Source: Sphingomonas sp. (GTDB lineage: Bacteria; Pseudomonadota; Alphaproteobacteria; Sphingomonadales; Sphingomonadaceae). From it: DNA of 64,000 nt. The notes under the pieces were generated by a model, which saw nothing but the letters and a program-made list of their open reading frames with translations, had not been told where the DNA came from and did not search any database. The stretch covers positions 372,001-436,000 of the forward strand of contig NZ_JAFKLZ010000001.1 of NCBI RefSeq assembly GCF_017304615.1, given 5' to 3'. A program made the translations under genes and the position numbers. Of this stretch, positions 16,630 through 31,562 are shown piece after piece (the first letter of the stretch is position 1; every line of letters begins with the position of its first letter).

Positions 16630-18665
16630 CGCCGAGCGGCGAGGATCGCGTCGCGCATAGCGGGGTAGAGCAGATCGTTGCCGTGGCCGCTGAGATGGTC
16701 GCCGTCGAAGAACAGGGGGCGCCCAGTCTGGTCGAGCGCGTGGCATGGGTTGGCGGGGCAGAGGATGGGGAAGGGATCCCATATTTTGAGAGCGGGATAT
16801 TGGCGGGACAGGTCCGCCATCGCGCCCAAGACGTGCCGACGGAGCATGAGCGCTCGGTCGCGCGCTATCGTCAGGCCGCCGGCGCAGATCGGGTTGGCGC
16901 GATCGTACCAGTCGGCGCAGCGGAACGGTGGCGCGGGGAAAATCGGCTTGGGCGCTTCGATGACGACGCGGAACCCCATCGCCTGCAATCGAGCGAGCGT
17001 CGCCCGCGCTTCGGCAAGCGCGACGGGCGAGAGCGTGTTGTCGACGGGCGTGTCGTGCTCCGCGTCGTGGCCGAACTGGTTGATCAGCCGGGTCAGTCGC
17101 AGGCCGGGCAGGAATACGACGTCGCCGGGGCGGCCTAGCGCGCGCAGGTCATCGAAGAAGCGGCTGTAGAAACCAGCGCAGCGGTGCTTCACGTCCATCG
17201 GTTGGATCAGGCGCAGGAACGGACAGCCCGGGTGGAAATAGCTCGCGACCGGCACGCCGAGTTCGGCAGCGAGTTGGCGGTAATTGGGCGCGTAGGCGGT
17301 GTTGTGGGAGTCGCCAATGGCGAAGACGCGAAAGCCCGCCGTGGGTATCGCACAGCTACTCGGCGTCCAGCGATCCGCGTCCCGGTCGCGCCCTATCGTC
17401 ACGGCGCAGTGCGTGAGGGCGGGGTTCAGCGCGTGGCGCTCGTCGGCATACCAGGTCGAGTGATCACGGGTGACGCCGATCGCCAGCAGGTCGCTGCGCG
17501 CCAGCATCCCGAATCCTAGCGTGGCGCAGGCGAGCGTACCGATCGCCATACGCCCGACGATAAACCTGGGCGCACCGTTGGCGGCCTTGCCTTTGCGGCG
17601 GAGGGGGCGCTCGATCAGGAAGTAGGATGCGGTCGCCAACAGCACCGCCAGGACTAGCGCGGCGAACTGAAGACCGAGCGTTTCGAGACCCACGGTCCAG
17701 CGGAACATCACGAAGACGGGCCAGTGCCAGAGGTAGAGTGAATAGGACAGCCGTCCGATCGCAACTGGACCCTTGCTTGCGAGGATTCGAGCGATCCCCG
17801 TGTCGGGAGACGCGAGAACGCTGGCGATCAGCCCGATCGTGCCGACCACCGGCAGGATCGCGAGCGGGAACGGAAAGCCATGCTGATCAGGCAGTGCGAG
17901 TGCTGCTCCGACCATCAATATGCTGACACTTACCAACGCCGCGCGCCGCTTCGCTGGCCACGCTACTAGGACCGGCAGCCACTGTGGCATCCGGAGGCAG
18001 AGGATCATTCCTAGGCCGAGTTCCCAGAACCGGCCGACGATCAGGTAAAACGCATATTTCTGGTCGATCACGGTCAAGACGCCGCAAAGCGCGAAGGACG
18101 CCAGCGCGGCCCAGCCGATCACTCGCACTGCCCGGTCGGCGTCTAGCTTCGCGCTGTCGAGCCTTTGGTGCCAGAACAGGATGAGCGGGAATACCAGATA
18201 GAATTGTTCTTCGACACCCAACGACCAAGTGTGCGTGAACGGGTTGAACGCCGCCTGCACCCCGAAATAGCCGTCAGTATCCGTCGCCAGGATGATGTTG
18301 GATAAACCAAAGAACGCGAAGCGCGCGGTCTGCGGCACTGCGCGGCTGAGCCATGCTTCGGGCACCAGCATCTGGTTCACGAGGATCGCGACGAGCAGCA
18401 TCGCGAGTAGTGCAGGCATGATGCGAACGAGGCGTCGCGCATAGAAATAGGACAGCATCGCCGGCAGCCGATCGAAGCTCTTGCCGATCATGGATCCGGT
18501 GACGACGAAACCCGAGATCGCGAAGAAGATGTCGACGCCGGAAAAGCCCCCCGGCAGCAAACCTGGGTGCAGGTGAAAGGCGACGACGGACAGCACGGCG
18601 AGCGCGCGCAGTCCGTCGATTGCTGGAATGTAGCCCAGCGGGTGCCGGGCGGTAGCGATGCTCAA
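16626..18665 (-). CDS. Membrane acyltransferase (acyltransferase-3) fused to SGNH domain, OafA/YrhL type
   Basis: A 679-residue protein. The first ~370 residues are an acyltransferase-3 membrane domain with about ten hydrophobic segments. It opens with GYIPAIDGLRALAVLSVVAFHLHPG and includes FSGVDIFFAISGFV and HTWSLGVEEQFYLVFPL. The C-terminal part is a periplasmic SGNH esterase/acyltransferase domain with the block I motif FAIGDSH and the catalytic DGDHLSGHG near the end. Proteins of this type O-acetylate O-antigen, capsule or peptidoglycan. No polysaccharide genes are nearby, so the target is unknown. The start is a TTG at 18665. It is convergent with the nitroreductase. Confidence 0.9.
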   Translation of the reverse strand: MSIATARHPLGYIPAIDGLRALAVLSVVAFHLHPGLLPGGFSGVDIFFAISGFVVTGSMIGKSFDRLPAMLSYFYARRLVRIMPALLAMLLVAILVNQMLVPEAWLSRAVPQTARFAFFGLSNIILATDTDGYFGVQAAFNPFTHTWSLGVEEQFYLVFPLILFWHQRLDSAKLDADRAVRVIGWAALASFALCGVLTVIDQKYAFYLIVGRFWELGLGMILCLRMPQWLPVLVAWPAKRRAALVSVSILMVGAALALPDQHGFPFPLAILPVVGTIGLIASVLASPDTGIARILASKGPVAIGRLSYSLYLWHWPVFVMFRWTVGLETLGLQFAALVLAVLLATASYFLIERPLRRKGKAANGAPRFIVGRMAIGTLACATLGFGMLARSDLLAIGVTRDHSTWYADERHALNPALTHCAVTIGRDRDADRWTPSSCAIPTAGFRVFAIGDSHNTAYAPNYRQLAAELGVPVASYFHPGCPFLRLIQPMDVKHRCAGFYSRFFDDLRALGRPGDVVFLPGLRLTRLINQFGHDAEHDTPVDNTLSPVALAEARATLARLQAMGFRVVIEAPKPIFPAPPFRCADWYDRANPICAGGLTIARDRALMLRRHVLGAMADLSRQYPALKIWDPFPILCPANPCHALDQTGRPLFFDGDHLSGHGNDLLYPAMRDAILAARR

Positions 18666-18705
18666 AACGTAAATCCCCGGAACGGCTTAGGGGCGGTTGG
18701 GGGAT

Positions 18706-18738
18706 AAGAAAAGGGCGGTCCGGTTGCCCGGGCCGCCC
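18706..18738 (-). terminator. Terminator of rplJL
   Basis: An 11-bp stem (18713-18723 with 18728-18738, one G-U pair) has loop TTGC and is followed on the minus strand by TTTTCTT. It lies beyond the repeat element downstream of rplL. Confidence 0.85.
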
Positions 18739-18755
18739 TCTTTCTTTGGCTTGGC

Positions 18756-18850
18756 CGTCACCGGAGTTAATCCGGTGACGTCGGACGCTGGCGGAGCCAG
18801 CGCCGGCCGGCCTTGTGCGGTGGGATTTAGCGGCTGCTAAATCCTCTCCG
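18756..18850. repeat. Three-hairpin intergenic repeat, copy A (downstream of rplL)
   Basis: Three consecutive hairpins are seen: 10-bp stem 18756-18765/18771-18780; 7-bp stem 18786-18792/18796-18802, framed by GTCGGACG and CGCCGGCCGG; and 9-bp stem 18823-18831/18836-18844 containing TTAGC/GCTAA. The same order, framing motifs and orientation recur at 26874 and 28874. Hairpin 3 ends 14 bases before the rplL stop. Confidence 0.85.
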
Positions 18851-18858
18851 CTAGCGGC

Positions 18859-19242
18859 TTACTTCAGCTCGACGGTCGCGCCGGCTTCTTCAAGCTGCTT
18901 CTTGATCTTCTCGGCTTCGTCCTTGTTGACGCCTTCCTTGACAGCCTTCGGAGCCGACTCGACCAGCGTCTTGGCTTCGGTCAGGCCGAGACCGGTGATG
19001 GCCCGGACTTCCTTGATGACGTTGATCTTCTTGCCACCGTCGCCGGTGAGGATCACGTCGAACTCGTCCTTGGCTTCTTCGGCCGGAGCCGCGCCACCGG
19101 CGCCGCCGGCGCCCGGGGCCGCAACCGCAACCGCGGCAGCGGCCGAAACGCCCCATTTCTCTTCGAGGAGCTTCGAAAGCTCAGCGGCCTCGAGCACCGT
19201 CAGTTCGCTCAGCTGGTCAACCAGCGCGTTCAGATCTGCCAT
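18859..19242 (-). CDS. rplL: 50S ribosomal protein L7/L12
   Basis: A 127-residue acidic stalk protein that recruits translation GTPases. The N-terminal dimerisation segment ([30 protein letters not shown], residues 3-32) leads into an Ala/Gly-rich hinge (35-58). The C-terminal factor-binding domain carries [20 protein letters not shown] and ends GATVELK. It follows rplJ after 63 bases and is the last gene of this transcript: repeat copy A and a terminator follow, and rpoB is not adjacent. Confidence 0.97.
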
Positions 19243-19270
19243 GATAATCTCCGTTCAATATTCTGATGAT

Positions 19271-19295
19271 TGGACCCCGGCTTGCGCAGGGGCGA
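19271..19295. repeat. Degenerate GC-rich repeat unit between rplJ and rplL
   Basis: The segment resembles the inverted arm of the element at 49803-49860 (core CCCGCCTGCGCGGGGAT), with several substitutions. Low confidence; it may be chance similarity. Confidence 0.3.
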
Positions 19296-19305
19296 CTTCG
19301 TCGAC

Positions 19306-19821
19306 TTAAGCTGCTTCCTTGGCCCCATAAGCACCAAAAACGCGAGCCAGCTGACCGGCCGGCGCCTGGGTGATGCTGGCGAGCTTCTGCGCCGGTGCCT
19401 GAATCAGGCCGACGATCTTCGCACGCAGTTCATCCAGCGACGGCATGGTGGCCAGAGCCTTCACGCCTTCGGGGTTGAGAGCCGTCGCGCCCATCGCGCC
19501 GCCGACGATTTCGAGCTTGTCGTTCGTCTTGGCGAAGTCGACCACCACCTTGGCGGCGGCGACCGGGTCGATGGAGCTGGCGAGACCGACCGGTCCCGTG
19601 AGCATGTCGCCCAGCGAGAGATAGTCGGTGCCGTCGAGCGCGATCTTGGCAAGCTTGTTCTTCGAGACCTTATAGGTCGCACCGGCCTCACGCATCTTCG
19701 TCCTGAGCTGCGTCGACTGTGCGACGGTCAGGCCGAGGTTGCGGGTGACGACCACCACACCAACCTCGGAGAAGGTCTGCTTGAGATCGGCGACGGCCGC
19801 GGCCTTTTGAGCACGATCCAT
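19306..19821 (-). CDS. rplJ: 50S ribosomal protein L10
   Basis: A 171-residue protein that anchors L7/L12 dimers to the ribosome. [20 protein letters not shown] is the normal alphaproteobacterial N-terminus, so I chose the ATG at 19821, with GGAG six bases upstream, rather than an in-frame start 30 bases further out. Motifs [15 protein letters not shown] and [13 protein letters not shown] are typical, and the C-terminal helix binds L7/L12. A long leader and its own promoter precede it, as expected for L10 autoregulation. Confidence 0.97.
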
Positions 19822-20020
19822 GCCATTCTCCACGTTTTGGTCGCACGGCAACAGCGCCGAACAACCGGTTCACAAGTCCAACGATGGGGAATGGGATGCC
19901 GCGCGGTAAGGCACGACCGGCCGGCGAACCGGCGATATATCCTGTCCCCGTCTCGGCAAGAGATTAAGCCGGAAACCGGCACTTGCTGTCTCGGACGGTG
20001 TCCGGGTGAACCCGGACGAG
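19822..20020 (-). promoter_or_regulatory. Probable L10 autoregulatory leader of rplJL
   Basis: About 200 untranslated bases precede rplJ on the minus strand. They include nested inverted repeats: GTCCGGGTTCACCCGGAC, then GCCGGTTTCCGGC, flanked by CGAGACAGC and GCCGAGACGGGG. A structured leader here is the known binding place for the L10-L12 complex, which represses its own translation. The assignment rests on position and palindromes; I could not fold it. Confidence 0.55.
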
Positions 20021-20026
20021 GGCGCG

Positions 20027-20054
20027 CCTATACGGGGATACGCGCGAAAGTCAA
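20027..20054 (-). promoter_or_regulatory. Predicted sigma-70 promoter of rplJL
   Basis: Minus strand TTGACT (complement of 20049-20054), a 16-base spacer and TATAGG (complement of 20027-20032), located just past the end of the upstream YaiI gene. Confidence 0.6.
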
Positions 20055-20061
20055 TTCGCGA

Positions 20062-20511
20062 TCAGCGCAGGCGCACCAGCATAACGTCGAGCGCTTGCAG
20101 GAAGCGCGAGCGATCGGCCTTGGAGAAGGCGGAGGGACCGCCGAGCTGTTCGCCGCCCGCGCGGAGATCGGCCATGATCGCGCGGGTCGCGACGGCGCTG
20201 CCGATTGAACTCGTGGTGAAGGGCCTGCCGTTGGGCGCCAGCACCGATGCGCCCGCTTTCAGACAGCGATCTGCGAGCAATATGTCTGCCGTCACTACCA
20301 CTGCGCCCGGCCCGGCGCGCTCGGCGATCCAGTCGTCGGCGGCATCGAACCCGTCGCTCACGATGACGCGATGGATCAGCGGATGTGCGGGCACCCGGAT
20401 CGGCGAATTGCTGACGATCGTGACCGGCACCTCGAGCCGCCACGCGACCTTGTAGATCTCGTCCTTCACCGGGCAGGCGTCGGCATCGACCAGGATGCGG
20501 CGGGTCGCCAT
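20062..20511 (-). CDS. YaiI/YqxD (DUF188) family protein
   Basis: A 149-residue member of the UPF0178/DUF188 family, a small PIN-like/NYN-like fold with an N-terminal acidic motif [16 protein letters not shown]. Also visible are [25 protein letters not shown] and the family signature [14 protein letters not shown] near the end. The fold suggests metal-dependent nucleic-acid cleavage, but no function is proven. It starts 5 bases after the stop of the DEAD-box helicase, so both are probably one transcript. It lies between rplA and rplJ, outside the ancestral ribosomal order. Confidence 0.9.
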
Positions 20512-20516
20512 GGGCG

Positions 20517-22298
20517 TCAGCTAGGCCGGCGCGGGGCGCCCTTGCCGGCGGGACCCTTGCGGAACGGCTTGCCCTTGTGGCGGATCGGCGAAGGGCCCGG
20601 GTGACGCGGAGCGGGCGGGCGCTGGTCGTTGCCGGTCGGCGCGGCACGGTGGAGCTTTGCGCGCGCAGGCGCGGCGGGCGCAGTGCCGGGACCATCGACC
20701 GGTTGGATACGGATGCCGCTGTCGTCCTCGCCGTCCTGGCCGGCGCTCTTGATCACCGCGGCCGCGAAGCGCGAGGCAAGGGCGCGCGGGATCTGAAAGC
20801 CGGTTTCGTTGGCCTGGATGCGGATCGCGCCGACCTCGTTCTTTGTGATCCCGCCGCGGCGGCAGATCAGCGGCAGCAACCAGCGCGGATCGGCATTCTG
20901 GCGACGGCCGACGTTCATCACGAACCAGACGGTGTCGTCGAAGCCGGGGCGATGATGTTGTTTGTCGGGCGCGAGGTTGGGGTTCGGCGTCGAGGTCAGC
21001 AATTCCTCGGGCTGCGGCATCGACGCGCGGTGCGCGTGGACCAGCGCGGCGGCGATATCCTCGGGCGACTTCTTCGCCATCAACTCGGCGGCGATCGCGC
21101 GGTCGTCGTCGTCGATCTCGACCTCGGCCAACATCGCGTCGAGCATCCGCTCGCGATCCTTGGCGCGGATGTCCTCGGGCGTCGGGACCGGCACCCAGCT
21201 GAAATCGATCCGCGCGCCCTTCAGCATCATCTCGACGCGGCGGCGGCGCGGGAAGGGAACGATGAGGACCGCGGTACCCTTCTTGCCCGCGCGGCCTGTG
21301 CGTCCGGAGCGATGCTGGAGCGTCTCGGCATCGCGCGGCAATTCGACGTGAACGACGAGGCTGAGCGTCGGCAGGTCGATCCCACGTGCCGCCACGTCGG
21401 TAGCTACGCAGACGCGCGCGCGGCGATCGCGCATCGCCTGGAGCGCGTGGTTGCGCTCGCTTTGCGAATGCTCGCCGGACAGCGCGACCGCCGCGAACCC
21501 GCGCTCGACCAGGCTGGCGTGGAGGTGGCGGACATTGTCGCGGGTCGCGCAAAACAGCAACGCCGTCTCCGCTTCGTGAAAGCGTAGCAGGTTGATGACG
21601 GCGTGCTCGATGTCCGACGGGCTGACCGCGATTGCCTGATAGGCGATGTCACCGTGCCCGCGATCCTCGCCGACGGTCGAGATGCGCAGCGCGTCGTTCT
21701 GATACTTCCTGGCCAGCGCGACGATCGGGCGCGGCATCGTCGCCGAGAACAAGAGCGTGCGGCGGTCGCGCGGGGTCGCGTCGAGCAGCGCCTCGAGGTC
21801 CTCGCGAAAGCCCATGTCGAGCATCTCGTCGGCCTCGTCGAGCACCGCGACCTTCAGCGTTGACAGGTCGAGTGCGCCGCGTTCGCTGTGGTCCTTCAGG
21901 CGCCCCGGCGTGCCGACGACGATATGCGCGCCGTGGCTGAGCGCGCGCCGCTCGCGGCTGGCGTCCATCCCGCCGACGCAGGTCGCGATCCGCGCCCCGG
22001 CCTTGGCGTAGAGCCACGACAATTCCTTGGCGACCTGTAGCGCAAGCTCGCGGGTCGGCGCGATCACCAGCGCCATCGGCGCGCCAGGCTGGGGCAGGCG
22101 GCCATCCTCGCCGAGCAATTCGCCCGCCATAGAAATGCCGAACGCGACGGTCTTGCCTGACCCGGTCTGCGCGGAGACGAGCAAGTCGCGGCCTTGGGCG
22201 GCGGGCTCGCTGACCTGCGCCTGGACGGGGGTGAGGGCGGAATAGCCCTTGGCGGTCAGCGCTTCGGACAGGGCGGCGGGCAGGTGCGAAAAGGGCAT
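20517..22298 (-). CDS. DEAD-box RNA helicase with DbpA-type RNA-binding domain
   Basis: A 593-residue ATP-dependent RNA helicase. RecA domain 1 shows the Q motif, AQTGSGKT (residues 43-50), [16 protein letters not shown] and SAT. Domain 2 shows ARGID and HRSGRTGR. The C-terminal third holds a DbpA-like RNA-binding domain ([20 protein letters not shown], then [14 protein letters not shown]) and a basic Arg/Pro/Lys-rich tail. These features point to ribosome assembly or cold-related RNA remodelling, close to DbpA/CsdA; I cannot choose between the two. It is followed within 5 bases by the YaiI gene. Confidence 0.92.
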
Positions 22299-22409
22299 GC
22301 GATCTCAACAGCGATACGTTCGGCCCAAGGCTAACGCGCCGGGCCGGAAACGGGAATGGAAATAGGGATTGGATGTGCGCCTACGCTCTTTTGCGCCGTT
22401 TGGCAAAAG

Positions 22410-22850
22410 TCAGGCGTGAACCTTCATAGCCGCGTTCATCAAAGTAACGAGCACGGCCACCAGAGCAACGGCGATCACCAGCCAGTAACCCGGCCCGAAT
22501 GCGGTCGCGCGATCGGGGTCGGCGCTGTCGTACCAGATCGTGTGGACGCCGCTCGGCCGCCAGCCGGCGCGGACGTAGCGCTTGACCTCGGCGACGTGAC
22601 GCTCGCCATCCTCGTCCTGATAATGGACGGTTTCCTCGATCAGCCGCTGGTTGTCGCCGTCGGTGATCCGCCAGCCGCGCAGCGTGCCCATGCCCCAGAA
22701 ATCGTCGCGCCGCTCAGCATCGGTATAGTCGCTCGCCCACACCACGGCCGCCGCCGGCTTCCACGCCGCGAACAAGGTCGCCGCGCGATAGAGGCAGTAG
22801 AGCAAGCCGAGCACCAGGGCCGGCGCCGCGAGGGTAACAAGATCCCGCAT
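22410..22850 (-). CDS. Hypothetical two-helix membrane protein (DUF3592-like)
   Basis: About 146 residues, with one hydrophobic helix at each end (N-terminal [20 protein letters not shown] and C-terminal [17 protein letters not shown]) and a polar beta-rich middle. The middle, with [20 protein letters not shown] and a later [11 protein letters not shown], resembles DUF3592 proteins, whose function is unknown. I prefer the ATG at 22850; a TTG 24 bases upstream is possible but its ribosome site would be too close. It lies downstream of the rplA terminator, the one breakpoint of the ribosomal cluster without the three-hairpin repeat. Confidence 0.6.
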
Positions 22851-22889
22851 CCCGTTGGCTTGGGTAGCCGGCAAACCTCACGAACCGGT

Positions 22890-22926
22890 AAAAGCGAAAA
22901 GGGCCGGGAGTTTCCTCCCGGCCCTT
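22890..22926 (-). terminator. Terminator of rplKA
   Basis: A perfect 12-bp stem (22899-22910 with 22915-22926) with loop TTTC, followed on the minus strand by a T-rich run. It lies 24 bases past the rplA stop. Confidence 0.92.
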
Positions 22927-22949
22927 CGCATTTCATCGGATGGCGACGA

Positions 22950-23642
22950 TCAGGCGCCCGCGAGTTCCGCGGTGTCGACCTTGATCCCCGGACCCATCGT
23001 CGAGCTGAGCGCGACCTTGCGGACATACTTGCCCTTGGCGCCGGCCGGCTTGGCCTTGACCACCGCGTCGAGCAGCGCGTCGAAGTTCGCGCGCAGGTCT
23101 TCCGCGGGGAACGACGCCTTGCCGATGCCCGAGTGGATGATCCCGGCCTTTTCGACGCGATATTCGATCTGGCCACCCTTGGCAGCCTTGACCGCAGCCG
23201 CGACGTCCATCGTCACCGTGCCCAGCTTCGGGTTCGGCATCAGGCCCTTCGGACCCAGCACCTTGCCGAGGCGACCGACGATTCCCATCATGTCCGGGGT
23301 CGCGATGCAGCGGTCGAAATCGATCGTGCCGCCCTGGACGATTTCCATCAGGTCCTCGGCGCCAACGACATCGGCGCCGGCGGCCTTGGCCTCGTCGGCC
23401 TTCGCGCCCTTGGCGAACACGCCGACGCGGACGGTTTTGCCGGTGCCTTTGGGGAGGGTGACGACGCCGCGGACCATCTGGTCGGCGTGGCGGGGGTCGA
23501 CGCCCAGGTTGAGGGCGACTTCGATCGTTTCGTCGAACTTCGAGGTCGCGTTGGCCTTGGCGAGCGAAATCGCTTCATCGACGCCGTGGAGCTTCTCGCG
23601 GTCGACCGAGAGAGCCTTCTGCTTCTTGCTAACGAATGCCAT
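22950..23642 (-). CDS. rplA: 50S ribosomal protein L1
   Basis: A 230-residue L1-stalk protein that binds 23S rRNA and, in many bacteria, represses its own operon. Recognised by [24 protein letters not shown], then [13 protein letters not shown] and [18 protein letters not shown]. Length is normal. It starts 4 bases after rplK, in the same transcript. It is followed by a strong terminator and not by rplJ, so the usual rplKAJL order is broken here. Confidence 0.98.
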
Positions 23643-23646
23643 GTTC

Positions 23647-24078
23647 TCAGCCCTCCACCACTTCGAGGCCCATCGCGCGGGCGGAGCCTTCGATGATGCG
23701 GGTCGCCGCTTCCATGTCGTTGGCGTTCAAGTCCTTCATCTTCGTCTCGGCGATCGCGGTCAGCGCCGAGCGCTTGATCTTGCCCGCGGAGACCTTGCCC
23801 GGCTCCTTCGAGCCCGATTTCAGGTTCGCGGCCTTCTTGATCAGGAACGACGCCGGCGGAGTCTTCGTCTCGAACGAGAACGAACGGTCCGCATAGACGG
23901 TGATGACGGTCGGGATCGGCGCGTTCTTTTCCATGTCGCCCGTCGCGGCGTTGAACGCCTTGCAGAACTCCATGATGTTCACGCCGCGCTGACCAAGCGC
24001 CGGGCCGATCGGCGGCGACGGATTGGCGGCGCCGGCGGGCACCTGCAGCTTGATATAGCCGGTAATCTTCTTTGCCAT
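23647..24078 (-). CDS. rplK: 50S ribosomal protein L11
   Basis: A 143-residue protein of the GTPase-associated centre. The N-terminal [27 protein letters not shown] segment (thiostrepton/proline-rich switch) and the C-terminal rRNA-binding part ending [13 protein letters not shown] are intact. It is the first gene of the rplKA transcript. A divergent gene begins 210 bases upstream, so its promoter must lie in that gap, but no convincing -35/-10 pair was seen. In most bacteria nusG is directly upstream; here two unrelated genes intervene. Confidence 0.98.
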
Positions 24079-24271
24079 GGTGGCTTTCTCTCACTCTGTT
24101 GGCGGCTCTGAGCGCTACAGCGCCCCGCCGTTTCAAGTTTAGCGGTACAAGCGGACGCACGCGCCCTCCCGCAGGTTTCCATTGCTGTAGCGTTGGAAGC
24201 GCGCGCCGATAGCCGAAGCGGGGCGCGGGATCAAGTACGGGGCGACGAAAGGGTTGAGAAGTTGGAAATCG

Positions 24272-24296
24272 TTTGACAGCCTCCGCGCATGTCAAA
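24272..24296. promoter_or_regulatory. Operator-like dyad overlapping the start codon of the HTH-repeat gene
   Basis: A perfect 7-bp inverted repeat TTTGACA (24272-24278) and TGTCAAA (24290-24296) has an 11-base spacer, and its right arm overlaps the ATG at 24289. Such a site could let the encoded HTH protein control itself; this is inference. Confidence 0.4.
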
Positions 24297-25221
24297 GCCG
24301 TTCAATCGCGCACAAACGCTGCAAAACACCGCTTTCCTGCGCGAATTGCGGCGCACCGGGAACGTCCGGCTGTCGGCGCGCGCGGTCGGGCTGAAATATT
24401 CGACGATCCAGCATCGCCGCCGCGCGCACCCGGCCTTCGCGCTTCGATGGGACGCCGCGTTGGTGTTCGCGCAGGCGCGACTCGCGAAACAGGGCCTGAA
24501 GAGTCCGAAGGCGCGGGAGGAGGGCAACAGGACCTCAGGCGGTGAGGCCGTCGTGGTCCGCCGCAACGACGGCAAGCTGCAGATGCGGCGCGCCCAGCCC
24601 GGCAAGCTGACCAAGCAATGCGAACAGGCGTTCCTGTCGGCGCTGTCCGTGTCCGCCAACGTCCGGCTGTCGGCCGCGGCGGCGGGCGCGGCGGAGGCGG
24701 CCTTCTATCGCCGCCGCCGTCGCGACAAGGGGTTCGCGCGCGAATGGCGGCTGGCGCTGGAGGCGGGGTATGAGCGGCTCGAAATGGCGCTGCTCGCCAG
24801 CGCCTCGCCCGCCAGCCACGAGGACGATGCGTGGCGCCACAACGCGCCGCCCGACATGCCGCCGATGACGGTCAACCAGGCGCTGCAACTGATGTACCTG
24901 CACCAGAAGGAAGCGCGGCTGGGCGGCACACACGAACTGTTGCGGCGGCGGCGGCCGGGCGAAAGCCGCGCGGAAATGTCGATGCGGCTGACCTTGCTCT
25001 ACGAGGAACGGCAGGCGCGCGAGCAGGAGAAGATCGCGGTGGCGGAAGCCGAACGCCGCGCGCGGGGCGAGCCGAGTCCCTACGAAGCGTGGCGCGCGGT
25101 GGTCGACCTGGCGCAAGTCACCGGCTGGTCGAGCGCGGACCCGGCCAAGACGCCGCATGATCCGGACCGGGCGCTGTTCGGGGGATGGCGGATGCGGGAG
25201 TTGAGGAGGAAGCTAGAGTAG
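24289..25221 (+). CDS. Protein with two tandem HTH repeats, terminase-small-subunit-like
   Basis: A 310-residue basic protein with an internal duplication. Residues 16-58 (FLRELRRTGNVRLSA, then R-rich, ending FALRWDAAL) are mirrored by about 114-160 (FLSALSVSANVRLSA, then RRRRRDKGFAREWRLAL). Each unit looks like a helix-turn-helix of the kind found in phage small terminase and related DNA-binding proteins. The C-terminal part is helical and charged (EERQAREQEKIAVAEAERRA). No large terminase, portal or capsid gene is near, so a phage role is not supported here. It is convergent with the methyltransferase-nuclease gene, overlapping 9 bases, and sits between nusG and rplK. The ATG overlaps a dyad. 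Confidence 0.65.
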   Translation: MSKPFNRAQTLQNTAFLRELRRTGNVRLSARAVGLKYSTIQHRRRAHPAFALRWDAALVFAQARLAKQGLKSPKAREEGNRTSGGEAVVVRRNDGKLQMRRAQPGKLTKQCEQAFLSALSVSANVRLSAAAAGAAEAAFYRRRRRDKGFAREWRLALEAGYERLEMALLASASPASHEDDAWRHNAPPDMPPMTVNQALQLMYLHQKEARLGGTHELLRRRRPGESRAEMSMRLTLLYEERQAREQEKIAVAEAERRARGEPSPYEAWRAVVDLAQVTGWSSADPAKTPHDPDRALFGGWRMRELRRKLE

Positions 25222-26814
25222 GCTTGGCTGCTGCCCGGTATCCTCGCGCGCGGCGCGCTTGAACGCGGCCCCGGCGTCGACCCACGGAATGTCTGGCCGC
25301 TTGCCCTGGAACAGTTCGGCAAGCGTCAGGATTTGCAGCCGCGGATAGCTTTTGCCGGTCGCTTCCGAATGGAACCGGCCGACCGCGGCGGCTTCCTTTT
25401 CCATCGGGCCGGACGGCATCGCCTTGGTGATGAATACGCCGATCGGCGACTTTTCGCGTTCCATCGCCGAATGGAGATCGCGGATCATCTGGACGCCGAC
25501 ATTGTCGCCGCCTTTGACCGACACCAGCGCCTTTTCGGTCTTCTTGCCGTCTGGCTTGAAATAGATGATGCCGTCGATGCCCCCGTCCGCGCCCTTTTTC
25601 TTGCCGCCGAACGGCATGGCGTCGACCATGCTGACCGCCCACCATTGGAACTGGTATTTGTCGCGCCGCGCCAAGTCCTCGGCGGAGGCGAGGTCCTTCG
25701 GCGTGCCCTCAACTGTGAACGCGATGCCGGGAAACGCGGCCTTCATCCGCTTTTCGATCAGGCTGATCGCCAGATGGGTGATGTCGATTCCGATCCATTG
25801 CCGGCCGAGCTTCTGCGCGGCGTGGACGGCGGTGCCGCAGCCGCAGAACGGGTCGAGGACGACGTCGCCTTCGTTGGACGAGGCGGCGATGATGCGTTCC
25901 AGTAGGGCGAGAGGTTTCTGGGTTGGGTAGCCGAGGCGTTCTTGGGCTTGGGAGTTGAGTGGTGGAATGTCTGTCCACACGTCCCCCAGCGGCACGCCTT
26001 CCTGCTCGTCCAAATACCGTTTCAGGCGGGGTACTGCACCCGGGCTTGGTTGGATAACGAGGCCGTCTTCATAAGCCTTTTGCATCCGGTCTTTAGTCCA
26101 GCGCCATACACGTGTCACTCCAAGAAACTCGTATGTAAGATTGGGGCGATCTTTGTTCGGATTCAAAAGATTATCGAGCTGATACCGCCGACCCGTCTCG
26201 GGTTCGACATTGGAGTAATGACTCCGGATATACGCGTCGGAATGACCAATATATTGGGAGTTCCAAGTGGCGCCGGAATCCTTCCGGGTCACCAATATGA
26301 CGTCATGCGAACTTGCAAATCGGGTGAAGGCGTGGCCCTTCGCCGCCGTCCTATTCCAAATTATTTCGTTGAAAAATTTATCAGCCCCGAACACCCCATC
26401 CAGCAGCAGCTTGAGGTAGTGGCTCGCGGTCGGATCGCAGTGCAGATACAGGCTGCCGGTCGGCTTGAGCACGCGGTGCAACTCGATCAGGCGGATCGCC
26501 ATCATCGACAGATACGCCATCATATCGTTTTCGCCGAGGAAGCCGCGCATCGCGTTCAGCAGGTCGAACGCCTTGGTATTGCCGCTGCGCGCGACCTGAT
26601 CGAAGGCGTCCTCCGCCACGTCGTTCCAATGCCAGGTATCCTCGAACGCCTCGATCTGCGCGTCGGACGAACTGCCGGTCGGCGATTTGAACAAGATGTT
26701 GTAATTGGCGTTCGAATTGAACGGCGGGTCGAGATAGACGAGGTCGACGCTCTCGCTCGGCACATGCTCGCGCAGCACATCCAGATTGTCGCCGTAATAG
26801 AGCCGGTTGGTCAT
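25213..26814 (-). CDS. Beta-class DNA methyltransferase fused to Mrr-like nuclease domain
   Basis: A 533-residue fusion. The catalytic motif IV DPPF (residues 29-32) comes first, a target-recognition region occupies about 138-258, and the SAM-binding motif I DPFCGCGT (about 320) follows; this order defines beta-class N6-adenine or N4-cytosine methylases. From about residue 400 a second domain resembles the Mrr catalytic fold of PD-(D/E)xK nucleases: GADGGIDGIIYF, then ALVSVKGG, then MIRDLHSAMER and PIGVFITKA. The catalytic triad reads D...SxK instead of the usual ExK/QxK, so activity is uncertain. No separate restriction subunit is nearby. The target-recognition region has much lower GC than the rest. 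It lies between nusG and rplK. Confidence 0.85.
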   Translation of the reverse strand: MTNRLYYGDNLDVLREHVPSESVDLVYLDPPFNSNANYNILFKSPTGSSSDAQIEAFEDTWHWNDVAEDAFDQVARSGNTKAFDLLNAMRGFLGENDMMAYLSMMAIRLIELHRVLKPTGSLYLHCDPTASHYLKLLLDGVFGADKFFNEIIWNRTAAKGHAFTRFASSHDVILVTRKDSGATWNSQYIGHSDAYIRSHYSNVEPETGRRYQLDNLLNPNKDRPNLTYEFLGVTRVWRWTKDRMQKAYEDGLVIQPSPGAVPRLKRYLDEQEGVPLGDVWTDIPPLNSQAQERLGYPTQKPLALLERIIAASSNEGDVVLDPFCGCGTAVHAAQKLGRQWIGIDITHLAISLIEKRMKAAFPGIAFTVEGTPKDLASAEDLARRDKYQFQWWAVSMVDAMPFGGKKKGADGGIDGIIYFKPDGKKTEKALVSVKGGDNVGVQMIRDLHSAMEREKSPIGVFITKAMPSGPMEKEAAAVGRFHSEATGKSYPRLQILTLAELFQGKRPDIPWVDAGAAFKRAAREDTGQQPSLL

Positions 26815-26873
26815 CGGCCCACCATGGCGGGAAATCGGGCGCGGCGGAAGGGGGCGTGGTGTTGGGGGCGGAC

Positions 26874-26974
26874 CGACGCGGGAGTGAATCCCGCGTCGTC
26901 GTCGGACGGGTTCGCTTCGCGACCCGCCGGCCGGTCGAGCGCCGTTCTCGCGATTTAGCTGACGCTAAATCGCG
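26874..26974. repeat. Three-hairpin intergenic repeat, copy B (downstream of nusG)
   Basis: Hairpin 1 is a 10-bp stem 26874-26883/26889-26898. Hairpin 2 is framed by GTCGGACG and CGCCGGCCGG. Hairpin 3 is an 11-bp stem 26949-26959/26964-26974 with TTTAGC/GCTAAA. Same orientation and order as copies A and C. Hairpin 3 ends 12 bases before the nusG stop. Confidence 0.85.
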
Positions 26975-26986
26975 TGCGGCTCCGAC

Positions 26987-27526
26987 TTACTTGCTCCGCT
27001 CGACCTGTTCGAAGTCCAACTCAACAGGCGTCGCGCGGCCGAAGATCGACACGCTGACCTTGACCTTCGCCTTGTCGAAATCGAGTTCCTCGACCACGCC
27101 GTTGAAGCTCGCGAACGGGCCGTCGAGCACCTTGACGCTGTCGCCGATCTCGTAATCGACCTTGACCTGCGCCTTGGGCGCGTTGGCGGCGGCTTCGTCC
27201 TTCGAATTCAGCATCCGCGCGGCCTCGGCGTCGCTGATCGCCTGGGGCTTGCCGTTGGGGCCGAGGAAGCCTGTCACCTTCGGCGTGTTCTTCACCAGGT
27301 GATAGACGTCGTCGTTCATGCTGAGCTTGGCCAGCACATAGCCGGGCATGAACTTGCGTTCGACCGACACCTTCTTGCCGCGGCGCGCCTCGGTGACGGT
27401 TTCGGTCGGAACCTCGATCGCCTCGACCAGCTGATCGAGGCCCATGCGAGTCGCCTCGGCCATGATCGCGTCGCGGACCTTGCCCTCGAAACCCGAATAA
27501 GCGTGAATGATGTACCAGCGTGCCAC
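26987..27526 (-). CDS. nusG: Transcription termination/antitermination factor NusG
   Basis: A 179-residue elongation factor that binds RNA polymerase and links it to Rho or the ribosome. The NGN domain opens ARWYIIHAYSGFEGKV and holds KKVSVERKFMPGYVLAK. The C-terminal KOW domain has DYEIGDSVKVLDGPFASFNG and ends in the usual DFEQVERSK. The start is the GTG at 27526 with AAGGGGAG upstream, 23 bases after secE. Repeat copy B follows directly, then the methyltransferase gene in place of the expected rplK. Confidence 0.97.
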   Translation of the reverse strand: MARWYIIHAYSGFEGKVRDAIMAEATRMGLDQLVEAIEVPTETVTEARRGKKVSVERKFMPGYVLAKLSMNDDVYHLVKNTPKVTGFLGPNGKPQAISDAEAARMLNSKDEAAANAPKAQVKVDYEIGDSVKVLDGPFASFNGVVEELDFDKAKVKVSVSIFGRATPVELDFEQVERSK

Positions 27527-27549
27527 GTGGGCGCTCCCCTTGATTGGTC

Positions 27550-27750
27550 TTACTTGGCCGCGAGGCTCAGGAGGAAGCCGACCAGCGCCTCGAACCCCGA
27601 ATCGATCGCGAAGAAGAAGATCGCCAGGATCAGCGTCATGATCATCACCATGACGCCGGTCATGATCGTCTCGCGCCGGGTCGGCCAGACGACCTTGCGG
27701 GTCTCCGCACGGACTTGCTGGATGAATTCGACCGGGGATGTCTTCGCCAC
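27550..27750 (-). CDS. secE: Preprotein translocase subunit SecE
   Basis: A 66-residue single-helix SecE, the short form typical of alphaproteobacteria. The conserved cytoplasmic amphipathic part reads FIQQVRAETRKVVWPTRRET, followed by one transmembrane helix. It clamps SecY in the SecYEG channel. The start is a GTG at 27750. It is co-transcribed with nusG, and tRNA-Trp lies upstream on the same strand beyond two small plus-strand genes. Confidence 0.95.
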   Translation of the reverse strand: MAKTSPVEFIQQVRAETRKVVWPTRRETIMTGVMVMIMTLILAIFFFAIDSGFEALVGFLLSLAAK

Positions 27751-27968
27751 GTAACGGCCTCGCTAATGTTGTTCGCGTCCGGACATAGGACCGCCGCCCG
27801 CTCCCGTGAAGGGCCGGACGAAGGATTTCCGATGTCGGATTGGTGCGCGCGATACCCGCTTCGCGGCGGCTTTGCAACGGCGGAGAGGGCGGCGTTGCGA
27901 GCGGCTTGCCCGGCGCGCCGCGTTGCGGCAAGCTGCGCGCTCGGAAAAGCGCACGGAATTTGGGGGCC

Positions 27969-28547
27969 ATGCCGGTACCGTATCGCACCATCAGGCCGCG
28001 CCCGCCGCGGGCCGAGCCGGTCGCCGCGCCGCCGCCCGCATCGGGCTGGACCGATTCGATCGCGCCGCTGGGCCTGATCGTGGCGGCGCTGGGCCTGATC
28101 GCAACCACCGCGCAGAGCCTGCTCGCCTATCTGACGGTCGACACGCCCTATCGCACCCTGGTCTACGAACAGCAGATCAAGCAGGCGGTCGAGGCGATCG
28201 ATTACATGGAAAGCGCGATGAGCGACGTCGATCGCTGGAGTTCCAGCCGCGACCAGAATCGCCGCGACCCGCTGACCGTTCCCAAGGAGATGCGCGTGAA
28301 GATGCGGCGCTTCGCGGAGATCCCCGGGACCGTCTGGCTGCTCAAGCCCGACGCGCGGCAGGAGCTCGCCAACGCCGCGCTCCAGTTCAACAACTACGTC
28401 TCGCTGTGCGAGATGCCGGCCTACGTCAACAAGCAGACCAAGCCGGAAGCGTGCCATGATATGTACGCGAAGATCGGGCTATCGCTGGAGGCGTCGAAGA
28501 ACCGGCTGCTCGATTATGGCAATATCCGGTCGCGGGCCCAGAACTGA
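27969..28547 (+). CDS. Hypothetical protein with one membrane helix
   Basis: I do not recognise this 192-residue protein. After a Pro/Arg-rich N-terminus there is one hydrophobic helix (SIAPLGLIVAALGLIATTAQ, about residues 33-52). A likely extracytoplasmic helical region with two cysteines follows (SLCEMPAY and PEACHDMY) and ends at residue 192. I chose the ATG at 27969; an upstream in-frame start exists but the added residues have no gene-like character. The next gene starts 13 bases downstream, so they form a pair lying between tRNA-Trp and secE, on the opposite strand. Confidence 0.6.
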   Translation: MPVPYRTIRPRPPRAEPVAAPPPASGWTDSIAPLGLIVAALGLIATTAQSLLAYLTVDTPYRTLVYEQQIKQAVEAIDYMESAMSDVDRWSSSRDQNRRDPLTVPKEMRVKMRRFAEIPGTVWLLKPDARQELANAALQFNNYVSLCEMPAYVNKQTKPEACHDMYAKIGLSLEASKNRLLDYGNIRSRAQN

Positions 28548-28560
28548 CGGAGGAAGGAAC

Positions 28561-28830
28561 ATGCGCGCCATCGCCAGTCCAGCAGTCGCAGCCGCGCTGA
28601 TCCTCGCGAGCGCCGGTCCGGCGGGGGCGGACATCGTCAAGCCCAAGCCGGTCAAACAAAGCGGCCCCGCGAACCCGGCGTCGCCGTCCGCGGCCAACGC
28701 GACCGATCAACCGCCGGCGCCACGCACCAAGCAGGACCCGTGCGCCGACGTCCACACCTATCGCACCACCGCCGCCCGCGCGATGTGCGTCGCCGAACGC
28801 GGCTTTCCGCAGGTGCCCGACGGGGAGTAG
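28561..28830 (+). CDS. Small secreted protein
   Basis: An 89-residue protein with a signal peptide (residues 1-23, ending PAGAD), a Pro/Ala-rich middle and a short C-terminal part with two cysteines (DPCADVHTY and ARAMCVAERG). The GGAGGAAGGAAC ribosome site before the ATG is strong. It belongs with the preceding gene. No family recognised. Confidence 0.55.
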   Translation: MRAIASPAVAAALILASAGPAGADIVKPKPVKQSGPANPASPSAANATDQPPAPRTKQDPCADVHTYRTTAARAMCVAERGFPQVPDGE

Positions 28831-28873
28831 GGGGCGGAGAAGGGTTTCGGTTTGTGGAGTGGGAAAGGGCCGC

Positions 28874-28959
28874 CGCGGCGAAGCCGCGTCGTCGGACGGT
28901 TTGGCTGTCGCCGACCGCCGGCCGGCCTCGCTGCGTCTGTCGATTAGCTGCGCTAATCG
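28874..28959. repeat. Three-hairpin intergenic repeat, copy C (downstream of tRNA-Trp)
   Basis: Hairpin 1 is 28874-28879/28883-28888. The middle part is framed by GTCGGACG and CGCCGGCCGG. Hairpin 3 is an 8-bp stem 28941-28948/28952-28959 with TTAGC/GCTAA. Hairpin 3 ends 15 bases before the 3' end of tRNA-Trp. Same orientation as copies A and B. Confidence 0.8.
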
Positions 28960-28974
28960 TCGCGCAGCGGGCCG

Positions 28975-29051
28975 TGGCAGGGGAGCTCGGATTCGAACCG
29001 AGGGCCTTCGGTTTTGGAGACCGACGCTCTAACCAGCTGAGCTACACCCCT
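28975..29051 (-). tRNA. tRNA-Trp (CCA)
   Basis: A 77-base cloverleaf on the minus strand. Acceptor AGGGGTG pairs with CTCCCCT, followed by D arm GCTC/GAGC, anticodon stem TCGGT/ACCGA with loop CTCCAAA (anticodon CCA), T arm CTCGG-TTCGAAT-CCGAG, discriminator G and encoded CCA. The sixth acceptor pair is T-T, a mismatch. tRNA-Trp just upstream of secE is the ancestral arrangement, here opened by two inserted genes. Confidence 0.95.
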
Positions 29052-29115
29052 AGGCCGCCGCGGCTCCTACCGTTCTCGCGGGGGGAGCGCAAGGCACTCG
29101 ACTAATCGTAAACCG

Positions 29116-29193
29116 GTGCTCCGGCGCAGGCCGGAGCGTTGGAGGGTGGGTACGCCGCTTGCGGGCAGGGCTCCGGCCTGCGCCGGAGCACAG
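29116..29193. repeat. Inverted REP pair, copy 1
   Basis: Two outward copies of GTGCTCCGGCGCAGGCC...GGAGC (29116-29137) and its reverse complement (29170-29192). Each is itself an 8-bp hairpin GCTCCGGC-GCAG-GCCGGAGC. The same pair occurs at 38020 and 53569. It lies between tRNA-Trp and the end of the GGDEF-EAL gene. Confidence 0.85.
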
Positions 29194-29204
29194 TAGAAGC
29201 GACG

Positions 29205-31562
29205 TTATGCCGCCGCCTGGTCGTCCCATTTGCGGTTCGCCAGCGCCCGCGCTTCCGCGACGGGGAGCGGGCGGCCGAAATAATAGCCCTGGACCTTGGT
29301 GCAGCCGAGCTCCTGGATCATCTGGTGTTCCTGCTCGGTCTCGACGCCTTCCGCGGTCGTCGCCATGCCGAGCGACTGCGCCAGCGCGACCACGGCGCGG
29401 ATGATCGCGATCGGTTCGGCCTGACCCTTGGAGGCGGCCTGAACGAAGCTGCGATCGACCTTGATCGTCGAGAATCGCGTGCGCGCGAGATAGCCGAGCG
29501 ACGAATAGCCCGTGCCGAAATCGTCGAGGCTCAACCGCACGCCGAGGTCGAGGACGCGTTCGAGCACCTGCACCGCGCCGGTGCCTTCGCGCATGAACAC
29601 GCCTTCGGTCACTTCGAGTTCGAGCCGGTCGGGCGGCAGGCCGCTATTGGCGAGTGCCGAGGCGACGACCGACACGAAGGCGGGGTTGTGGAGCTGTTCG
29701 GGCGACACGTTGACCGCGACGCGGATCGGGTGCGGCCATTTGGCGGCTTCCGCGCAGGCCGAGCGCAACACCCATTCGCCCATCGGCACGATCAGCCGGG
29801 CGTCCTCCGCTAGGGGCACGAACTTGGCCGGCGAGATCACGCCGAGTTCGGGATGCGTCCAACGTAGCAGCGCCTCGAAGCCCTTCAAACGTCCGTCGCC
29901 GGCGGAGACCACCGGCTGGTATTCGAGGTGCATCTCACCCTTTTCGAGGGCCTGGCGCAGCGCCATTTCGAGGACGCGGCGTTCCTCCGCGGCGATGTGC
30001 AATTGCGGTTCGTAGGTGTTGAACGCGCCGCCGCCGCCGTCTTTCGAGCGATAGAGGGCAAGGTCGGCCGAGCGGATCAGCATTTCCGCGGTGCGCCCGT
30101 CGCGCGGGCCGATGGCGATGCCGATCGACGCGCCGATGAACAGGGTATGCGCGTCGAGTTCGTAGGGCTTGGATAGCGTATCGATGATCGCATGTGCGAG
30201 CCGTTCGACGCGCTCGCTATCGGACGCGTCGCGCACCACGACCGCAAATTCGTCGCCGCCAAGCCGCCCGATCAATTCGTTGTCGGTCATCAGCCGCGCC
30301 AGCCGCTCCGACACCTGGCCGAGCAAGCGGTCGCCGACCGGGTGGCCGAGCGAATCGTTGACCGCCTTGAACCGGTCGAGGTCGATCATCATGAAGCCGC
30401 AGCGCGTGTTCCATTTGTCCGCTTCGGCGATCGCGTGGGCGAGCTGTTCATGGAGCTGGAGGCGGTTGGGCAGGCCGGTCAGCGCGTCGAATCGCGCCAT
30501 GCGGTTGATCTGGTCGGCGGATTCGCGTTCGGCGGTGATGTCGCGCCCGACGCCGCGGAACCCCAGGAACGCGCCGCGATCGTCGTAGCGCGGGCTGGCG
30601 GACAGCGCGAACCAGTGGAGCTGGTCCTTCACCTGGATCTGGAGCATCAGGTCGCGGAACGGTTCGCGCCCCTTCAGCTTTTCCGCCAGCGTGCGCAGCC
30701 CGGCGGTGAAATCACCCGATTCCCAGCGTTCGGCGGCGAGCGCCTGGAGCAGGGGCATGCCGTTGATCTTGACGGGGTCGAGGTGCACCGAGCGAGCGAA
30801 GCGCGGCGAGGCGCGGACGATGCGCCGCGCGGCGTCGGTTTCCCACAGCCAGTCGCCATCCTCCTCCTCGAATTCGCGGAGCAGCAGGCTGACGGTCTGG
30901 TCGCGCTCGGCGAGGCCGATCTCTCCGGCGCGGATCACCACCAAGGCGCGCGCCCGCTGAAGGCAGCCGATCATCAGCAGCACGACGAACAGGACAGTCG
31001 CCGCCGCCAGCAGCGGACTGCCGAGCCGGATCAGCATCGCGGTCACCGCCGTGCCGAGAATGCCGAGGAAGCTGAGCGTTGCCGTGGGCAGCGCCGCCAT
31101 CGACACCGCGCTGGCGGTCATCATCACCGAGAGCAGGATCCACAACGCCATCGCGACGCCGATCGGCGCGTGGGCGCCGAGTGCGAGCGGCGGAATCGAC
31201 CAGACGCAGGCGAGTCCCACGCCCTCGATCACGGTGTCGCGGACATCGTGCAGAGTCGCACTGATCGCATCGCGATGACGCGATGCCAGGCGGCGGATCG
31301 CCACGGTGGTGCCGACGATCCCGGTGACGATGCCCCAGCCGAACAGCAAGGTGCGCGGCACCTGGCCGTCGAACAGCATCACGATCAGCGCGGCACCCAC
31401 CAGATTCGCGGCGAGCAGGAACATGGCGAGCTGGCGCCCGGCGTGCAGCTGCGCCGCGCGAATCGGCCCCCAGTCCGTGGTGTCCGGGGGGTCATACAGC
31501 CCCAGCAGCGCGCGGACGTCGATCCGCGGTTTGGGAAATTGTGACGAAGCGCCTGTACTCAC
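29205..31562 (-). CDS. Membrane-bound PAS-GGDEF-EAL cyclic-di-GMP signalling protein
   Basis: A 785-residue inner-membrane protein. Five or six hydrophobic helices fill residues ~45-210, followed by a PAS domain (~225-345), a GGDEF domain with an intact GGDEF motif at ~432, and an EAL domain with EALLRW at ~560 and DDFGTGYSS further on. Both enzymatic halves keep their signature residues, so it could make or break cyclic di-GMP; which activity dominates cannot be told. No linked receptor or flagellar gene is present. It ends just before the REP pair at 29116. Confidence 0.93.
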   Translation of the reverse strand: MSTGASSQFPKPRIDVRALLGLYDPPDTTDWGPIRAAQLHAGRQLAMFLLAANLVGAALIVMLFDGQVPRTLLFGWGIVTGIVGTTVAIRRLASRHRDAISATLHDVRDTVIEGVGLACVWSIPPLALGAHAPIGVAMALWILLSVMMTASAVSMAALPTATLSFLGILGTAVTAMLIRLGSPLLAAATVLFVVLLMIGCLQRARALVVIRAGEIGLAERDQTVSLLLREFEEEDGDWLWETDAARRIVRASPRFARSVHLDPVKINGMPLLQALAAERWESGDFTAGLRTLAEKLKGREPFRDLMLQIQVKDQLHWFALSASPRYDDRGAFLGFRGVGRDITAERESADQINRMARFDALTGLPNRLQLHEQLAHAIAEADKWNTRCGFMMIDLDRFKAVNDSLGHPVGDRLLGQVSERLARLMTDNELIGRLGGDEFAVVVRDASDSERVERLAHAIIDTLSKPYELDAHTLFIGASIGIAIGPRDGRTAEMLIRSADLALYRSKDGGGGAFNTYEPQLHIAAEERRVLEMALRQALEKGEMHLEYQPVVSAGDGRLKGFEALLRWTHPELGVISPAKFVPLAEDARLIVPMGEWVLRSACAEAAKWPHPIRVAVNVSPEQLHNPAFVSVVASALANSGLPPDRLELEVTEGVFMREGTGAVQVLERVLDLGVRLSLDDFGTGYSSLGYLARTRFSTIKVDRSFVQAASKGQAEPIAIIRAVVALAQSLGMATTAEGVETEQEHQMIQELGCTKVQGYYFGRPLPVAEARALANRKWDDQAAA

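Follow-up and report, generated by a model that had tools for sequence, protein, structure and literature searches.

A three-hairpin palindromic repeat at gene 3′ ends in Sphingomonas-type bacteria

The window analyzed here is a stretch of 64,000 nt from Sphingomonas sp. (NCBI RefSeq assembly GCF_017304615.1, contig NZ_JAFKLZ010000001.1, positions 372,001 to 436,000 of the forward strand). It holds a ribosomal-protein cluster broken at four points, and the ends of rplL, nusG and tRNA-Trp are each adjoined by a ∼100-nt element of three hairpins that reads on the minus strand, as do the three genes. What is this element, and why does it lie against gene ends? Its copies form one structured family that is positioned at gene 3′ ends, recurs across species, is conserved above its flank and is overall palindromic without strand bias. 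These gene-boundary repeats of Sphingomonas-type bacteria appear to be a family not described before, often retained at the same sites from one species to another. From sequence comparison, our leading explanation, held at slightly under an even chance, is a family like the repetitive extragenic palindromic (REP) sequences, retained after genes as a boundary that is symmetric between the strands.

The element in the window and its family

Read in the sense of the gene, the layout was gene end, P1 outer stem, P1 core, spacer, P2 and P3. The order and common orientation of the three copies given in an earlier note on this DNA were confirmed, the plus strand reading P3, GTCGGACG, P2, CGCCGGCCGG and P1 with its TTAGC/GCTAA hairpin. 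A near-constant gap to the gene end had also been claimed; by covariance model it was 14 nt from gene end to P1 core start in all three copies, and the claimed figures of 14, 12 and 15 depend on where the stem is cut. Two features went beyond that note: a second, sequence-variable outer stem of P1 reaching nearer the gene end, and about 40 further copies elsewhere in the source genome.

All features of the three copies were on the minus strand, and each copy was scored with two covariance models, R1 and R2. Copy 1 (18755..18852; R2 match C1:390755-390852, 69.9 bits; R1 54.4 bits) lies 3′ of rplL (18859..19242; NCBIfam TIGR00855). Its P1 was placed at 18817..18851, with the core palindrome at 18823-18844, by sequence and fold, P2 with the core CGGCCGGCG ... 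CGTCCGACG at 18779..18809 by core pattern and fold, and P3 at 18757..18781 by hairpin call and fold. Copy 2 (26873..26981; R2 91.4 bits, R1 68.8 bits) lies 3′ of nusG (26987..27526; NCBIfam TIGR00922), with P1 at 26941..26980 (inner stem plus a GCCG/CGGC outer stem), the P2 region at 26900..26934 and P3 at 26874..26898. Copy 3 (28869..28969; R2 28870-28967, 54.9 bits; R1 66.9 bits) lies 3′ of tRNA-Trp (28975..29051; ARAGORN, Rfam RF00005), with P1 at 28929..28969 (outer stem CGCTGCG/CGCAGCG), the P2 region at 28890..28925 and P3 at 28871..28891; hairpins of copies 2 and 3 were placed on the same evidence as those of copy 1. The window contained three occurrences of the core pattern, compared with 0.00 in 100 shuffles, and three of the TTAGC/GCTAA hairpin, compared with 0.02. 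The fold of each copy was better than all 200 of its own shuffles (DNA z −8.3, −6.0 and −4.0).

Exact patterns recovered 6 copies in the source genome and 0 in the control. R1 was built from 14 copies and R2 from 22 copies from relatives, stepwise, because MAFFT misaligned P3 in the first six copies. The search of sphingomonad genomes by covariance model that the earlier note had proposed was then run and a family was found, with 43 working copies in the source genome. R1 gave 46 matches there at E ≤ 1 and R2 added a few; 7 R1 matches were dropped as reverse-strand echoes or weak matches inside genes, 4 R2-only matches were added and a fifth (C8:260609, 27.5 bits) was omitted. Copy numbers are lower bounds throughout, with 150 of 7307 candidates scored in the source genome, 49 per genome in the family search and 80 per genome in the genus search.

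At E ≤ 1e-4, R1 matched 51 of 61 genus genomes, source included, with 0-45 copies per genome, and at the family level R1 found the element in 16 of 99 sampled genomes. A class-wide search with 16 candidates scored per genome, a weak negative, gave no match outside the genus, 2 of 240 genomes being positive (the source and G091). Of the 84 stretches yielded by a pattern scan of species genomes, 80 were listed as loci; they included records of Sphingomonas (S. echinoides ATCC 14820 among them), Hephaestia, Stakelama and Chakrabartia and further sphingomonads. Ten loci came from unrelated taxa and were taken as chance because none reached R2 at E ≤ 1e-3. Two looser approaches were set aside: a TTAGC..GCTAA pattern (18 sites against 23 in the reversed control) was kept only for finding candidates, and a family-wide exact pattern that matched 12 of 99 genomes, and some reversed controls too, was replaced by the model searches.

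The covarying multi-hairpin architecture resembles that of structured RNAs in Rfam, but none of the element copies searched (window 18400-29400 with E up to 5, and sets of 12 and 14 loci) scored at the gathering level of any Rfam 15 family. Matches at or above gathering in the searched loci were confined to tRNA and tmRNA genes beside the element, and below gathering only KDPG-aldolase RNA overlapped the element, on the strand opposite to copy 3 (23.5 bits against 54.6, E 0.65). Literature searches within open-licence PMC did not show the element; a description may exist elsewhere. A separate sub-threshold match to CsrC (window 18507-18752, plus strand; 21.3 bits against 61, E 0.0046) adjoins copy 1 without overlap and is probably due to chance.

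Gene 3′ ends, inheritance and mobility

Genes were called with a home-made codon-usage caller (window-trained, unbenchmarked) and ARAGORN. In the source genome 31 of the 43 copies started −18 to +32 nt from a same-strand gene 3′ end, most of them at 5-17 nt, so that the absence of a genome-wide 3′-end preference, which the earlier note had named as grounds for rejection, was not what was found. The same position was taken by 30 of 42 copies in two relatives, by R2 matches in 29 of 32 congener rows and 16 of 21 rows from other genera, and by 43 of the 58 model matches in pattern-fetched loci; the sets from the two relatives, the R2 rows and the fetched loci share genomes. For the R2 rows, 53 of the 55 rows of alignment A8 were used, with one G055 element entered twice, another omitted and locus L174 counted as another genus. 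In many copies at coding genes, model position 1 of R2 coincided with the final base or bases of the stop codon, and the stop codon lay inside P1 at a MurC/Mpl-like gene in the source genome, at 5 lpdA loci and at 4 FtsJ-like loci.

Host genes numbered dozens, many of them housekeeping. Those named by NCBIfam or Pfam were rpoZ, nusG, rho, rplL, clpS, fdxA, rpsI, infC, sdhA, era, glutathione reductase, lpdA, a MurC/Mpl-like ligase, a phage capsid gene and CarD; groL was named by eye. Across loci, rpoA was host in 10, lpdA in 12 (matched by eye to the source lpdA), ribonucleotide reductase small chain in 7 and rpoZ in 6, the last including another genus, as did nusG; tRNA-Gly also recurred across species. 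Stable-RNA hosts identified with ARAGORN were tRNA-Trp, tRNA-Asp, tRNA-Val, tRNA-Gly and tmRNA, to which 6S RNA is added below the Rfam gathering score. Since the element occurs at stable-RNA genes, translation is not needed. The capsid host is an HK97-type phage major capsid gene (source C5:423-495), and this copy probably lies inside a prophage.

Several copies lay off the called 3′ ends. One in the source genome and its counterpart in the relative G125 follow 6S RNA (Rfam E 1.3e-5 and 3.5e-5, just under gathering). Another follows what appears by eye to be a tRNA-Ser 3′ fragment (GAATCCCTTCGCCCGCTCCA), as seen at source C8:629640 and at L307 and L354; the fragment may be what is left of the attachment site of an integrated island which brought the element. 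Several TTAGC hairpins off called ends are preceded by a motif resembling TGTAGGA(A/C)AGC(C)CCGGCGGC, which recurs across species (L326, L367, L388, L292 and source C4:313.5 kb); an unannotated RNA may end there, or the motif may be the leader of an opposite-strand gene.

Element and site were compared for inheritance. The element followed nusG in 14 of 31 genomes examined (30 best-match loci of 58 with nusG, plus G091; G109, with a weak match of 22.9 bits, was scored as absent). Presence at this site required 5 changes on the nusG tree against a shuffled mean of 10.5, with 0 of 500 shuffles as low, so the site has been mostly inherited, with several gains or losses. Seventeen source-to-relative pairs of orthologous sites were compared, and in all 15 with a measurable downstream non-coding flank the element was more alike than that flank, with means of 0.77 for the element, 0.58 for the flank and 0.52 at random. 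The margin was small at rplL (0.83 against 0.79), at an M13-peptidase gene and in one rho pair. Unrelated copies of the source genome scored 0.63, with a 95th percentile of 0.71 (27 copies).

These results bear directly on a serious rival, a selfish non-autonomous palindromic repeat like a REP or a miniature inverted-repeat transposable element, surviving where it is harmless just after genes, so that the 3′ position would reflect tolerance or target preference and not function. We consider this quite possible, at appreciably less than an even chance. The patchy copy number within one genus and the 16 of 99 family genomes fit it, as does palindromy without strand bias, and by eye about half of the G125 copies inspected sit at genes without a copy in the source genome. 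Tail-to-tail inverted pairs of elements between co-directional genes fit it too; these were seen in the source genome at C8:733669/733806 (after rho, present also in G125, L291) and C4:202563/202687 (fdxA-carD), and in L208 at 7743/7904 (nusG-rplK). However, a gene 3′ end adjoined the P1 side in 31 of 43 source copies, whereas an opposite-strand 3′ end lay close beyond P3 in 9 of 43 (8 of 58 in fetched loci), and the excess of orthologous copies over their flank in 15 of 15 comparisons is also unfavorable to selfish survival. Near-identical copies were absent among the 43 source, 24 G125 and 16 G109 copies (the most alike pair within one genome, two tRNA-Gly copies, scored 0.86; the mean was 0.70), and recent proliferation was not seen in this set. 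The Y1 transposase domain PF01797 was found in 4 of 61 genus genomes and in none of the five richest in copies (G000, G125, G109, G101 and G137), leaving mobilization by a RAYT unsupported.

Among the closest described repeats are the CGTC-tagged REPs, reported as families CGTC-1 to CGTC-4 in S. wittichii and S. chlorophenolicum; they are 20-40 bp long with one hairpin, an 8-9 bp stem almost always starting with A/T, a loop of 4-5 and mostly a CCA tail (PMC3733652). Like these, the element is a dispersed sphingomonad palindrome just downstream of genes, apparently without a dedicated transposase. It differs in its length of ∼100 nt, its three covarying hairpins and its core, in which the bases after a CGTC (CGTCCGACG) are CGACG and then a G+C-rich stem, by eye unlike the CGTC-REP stem, and no CCA tail was seen by eye in the element alignments. 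In L190, just after nusG, an inverted pair CGTCATTGCGAGCG..CGAAGCAATCCA fits the published description of a CGTC-tagged REP by eye and occupies the place where other species have the three-hairpin element. GTAG REPs and REPINs are likewise palindromic and intergenic and occur as inverted pairs; unlike the RAYT-linked GTAG repeats, the element showed no Y1/RAYT match in the five copy-richest genomes, the GTAG tag itself not being searched for. Rhizobium intergenic mosaic elements (RIME) and ABC elements are likewise multi-hairpin intergenic repeats of alphaproteobacteria; they occur in a different order of bacteria.

Covariation, strand symmetry and termination

The P1 outer stem was often GCCG/CGGC in relatives, and next to it came a motif in which a bulged A is followed by a single pair and an A.A mismatch (CAC facing GAGA). 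In relatives this motif was frequent at nusG, rplA and rpoA, and it was less regular in the source genome; in rplL copies, including the outer stem of copy 1 in the window, its strands were swapped, by eye. The P1 core is GATTAGC-loop-GCTAATC, the P2 core is CGGCCGGCG...CG(N)CCG(A)CG and P3 is often GCGGGATTTACTCCCGC or GCGGCTTTGCCGC. In the MAFFT-aligned set A7, 91.8% of cells paired and 20 of 32 pairs varied on both sides, with a covariation of 0.342 against 0.115 when shuffled (0 of 500 as high). The model-fitted sets A8 and A9 were similar, with 93.2% and 92.9% of cells pairing. Set A4 was gathered mostly by the P1 tip pattern and its invariant tip is uninformative for that reason. ARAGORN called a tRNA-Arg inside one element copy (L326 4513-4588; P2 as anticodon arm, P3 as T arm); the call was judged to be false, but a P3 loop resembling that of a T arm (ATTTACT/ATTCACT) does recur.

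Covarying stems are a hallmark of sense-strand structured RNA, and the element has them. A second hallmark, the tolerance of G-U over A-C, was not found. RNA that folds only as the sense strand is expected to show G-U above A-C. Counts of G-U to A-C in the element stems were 2:6 (A4), 8:11 (A5), 9:22 (A7), 28:29 (A8) and 32:30 (A9), or 11:28 for A4 plus A7 and 60:59 for A8 plus A9, where A8 and A9 overlap and the sum does not come from independent rows. Controls gave 26:2 in tRNA stems and 93:28 in terminator-like hairpins found with strand-symmetric scoring; these were taken from all loci, unrelated ones included, and among the terminator-like hairpins there may be false positives and a number of P3 hairpins. 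Fisher values for these counts and for the orthologous-site comparisons are rough, the sets being overlapping. Parity was not uniform: the P1 outer stem (12:3 in A8) and P3 (11:5 in A9) leaned to G-U, and the P1 core and P2 leaned the opposite way. Overall parity argues for a selective or mutational process that treats both strands alike, candidates being a two-way boundary, a palindrome acting as single-stranded DNA or cruciform, or template-switch repair. The G-U to A-C count is a simple computed test that separates a strand-symmetric palindrome from a sense-strand RNA when covariation looks convincing.

A 3′ untranslated region RNA element acting only as sense transcript, by binding a protein, blocking an exonuclease or giving rise to a 3′-derived small RNA, is improbable in our estimate. 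Strong covariation speaks for it, as do the recurrent bulged-A and A.A motif, the leaning of single helices to G-U and the sense orientation after mRNA, tRNA, tmRNA and 6S genes. The lack of a G-U excess against both controls speaks against it, as do inverted copies whose P1 faces the start of an opposite-strand gene (by eye TerC-like, obg-like in three records, and a tRNA). Less probable by far, indeed very unlikely, is that the covariation is purely mutational, with template switching making and repairing functionless palindromes. Double changes can arise in one event by template switching (PMC8794818), and G-U to A-C parity would follow. That account leaves unexplained why the core (GATTAGC, CGGCCGGCG...CGNCCGACG) is conserved in other genera, why the element stands after genes and why it is better conserved than its flank; a core decaying as fast as its flank with palindromy kept would fit it, and the reverse was seen.

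Termination signals were scored downstream of P3. A T-rich stretch (≥ 4 T in 7 nt) followed P3 in 16 of 88 copies (95 less 7 without a called hairpin) against a background of 5%, so the element is sometimes, and not usually, a classical terminator; the reading as a canonical intrinsic terminator was rejected for most copies. The earlier note's proposal of a 3′-end or termination module held for position, while the termination label found little backing. The source rho and rpoZ copies were clear cases of a P3 terminator, and two G020 copies (L154 and L168) carried a full A-tract/U-tract terminator at the P2 tip, so that P2 is able to accommodate a canonical terminator within the conserved frame. 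Like intrinsic terminators, the element lies after stop codons, and a minority of copies resemble true terminators at P3 or, in G020, at the P2 tip; unlike intrinsic terminators it usually has no U-tract, has two more conserved hairpins upstream and shows no G-U excess. At rplL a separate canonical terminator stands just beyond the element (18709..18739, minus strand; sequence and terminator scan). At rplA a plain terminator without an element, as the earlier note had described, was confirmed at about 22897..22924 on the minus strand from the sequence, and four relatives carry the element there in its place. Zymomonas mobilis is a relative of the sphingomonads, and its 3′ ends have been mapped. 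About a third of these lay at predicted intrinsic terminators (PMC7566282), which leaves room for other end-forming signals.

A possible two-way boundary and the broken cluster

The explanation we prefer, that of a strand-symmetric boundary, would run as follows. The element is a sphingomonad P1-P2-P3 palindrome fixed at transcription-unit boundaries, mostly with P1 against the gene 3′ end. Its origin would be REP-like, by an old dispersal, with no active mobility seen in the compared copies. It may have been retained because either strand can form its hairpins, which would bound transcripts in both directions by halting or blocking polymerase or by shielding RNA ends, whether they replace a simple terminator or stand beside one.

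Several observations weigh against this. About a quarter of copies lie away from any called 3′ end. Among those with a called P3, 72 of 88 copies have no T-rich end, and a strict terminator follows only 4 of 43, although the same rule found one within 220 nt of just 3 of the 58 window genes. No copy was found at E ≤ 1e-4 in 10 of the 61 genus genomes, which with the range of 0-45 copies makes the element dispensable. Five of the 17 orthologous pairs (nusG in the source-G125 comparison, aspT, glyT, one trpT and cds223) fall within the range of unrelated copies, so that by similarity alone they may have arrived independently. Strand symmetry would be expected equally of a selfish DNA palindrome or of template-switch repair.

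A more specific version of the boundary is doubtful in our judgement: a lineage-specific, strand-symmetric three-hairpin boundary that serves in place of U-tract terminators, sits on the stop codons of transcription-machinery genes (rpoA, rpoZ, nusG, rho and carD) and on stable-RNA genes, and is read by a dedicated factor that would recognize the bulged P1/P2 core on either strand.

The earlier note had also suggested a mobile or recombinogenic unit that opened the ribosomal-protein cluster, and this was not borne out. In the nusG regions of 20 relatives (L207-L226), secE-nusG-rplK-rplA-rplJ-rplL was broken by different genes in nearly all, with or without an element at nusG; such fragmentation of a normally tight cluster is unusual. 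Seven of these regions lacked the element at nusG, and none of the seven gave an R1 match at E ≤ 0.01 in the stretch examined. For 5 of them rplK was not found within the 6.7-8 kb examined beyond nusG; a sixth has a gene between nusG and rplK, and in the seventh these two genes are neighbors and the run breaks after rplA. Six of the 7 genomes have copies elsewhere (2-11 each, lower bounds), among them G130, with a copy after rplL just outside the stretch examined; G114 has none at E ≤ 1e-4. Relatives also carry the element after tRNA-Trp and rplL, and four of them at rplA, the breakpoint without it in the source genome. Although the element stands at three of the four breakpoints in the window, its having opened the cluster by insertion or recombination is scarcely credible, because the cluster is broken in all 7 relatives without it at nusG, one of them the copy-free G114, and most source-genome copies lie at genes outside the cluster.

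If the boundary explanation is right, a large environmental genus would end many of its core transcripts with a composite element that is absent from Rfam, and these ends would mostly lack the U-tract that terminator finders seek. The host list, with RNA polymerase subunits, NusG, Rho, CarD, tRNAs, tmRNA and 6S RNA, makes such a function directly testable.

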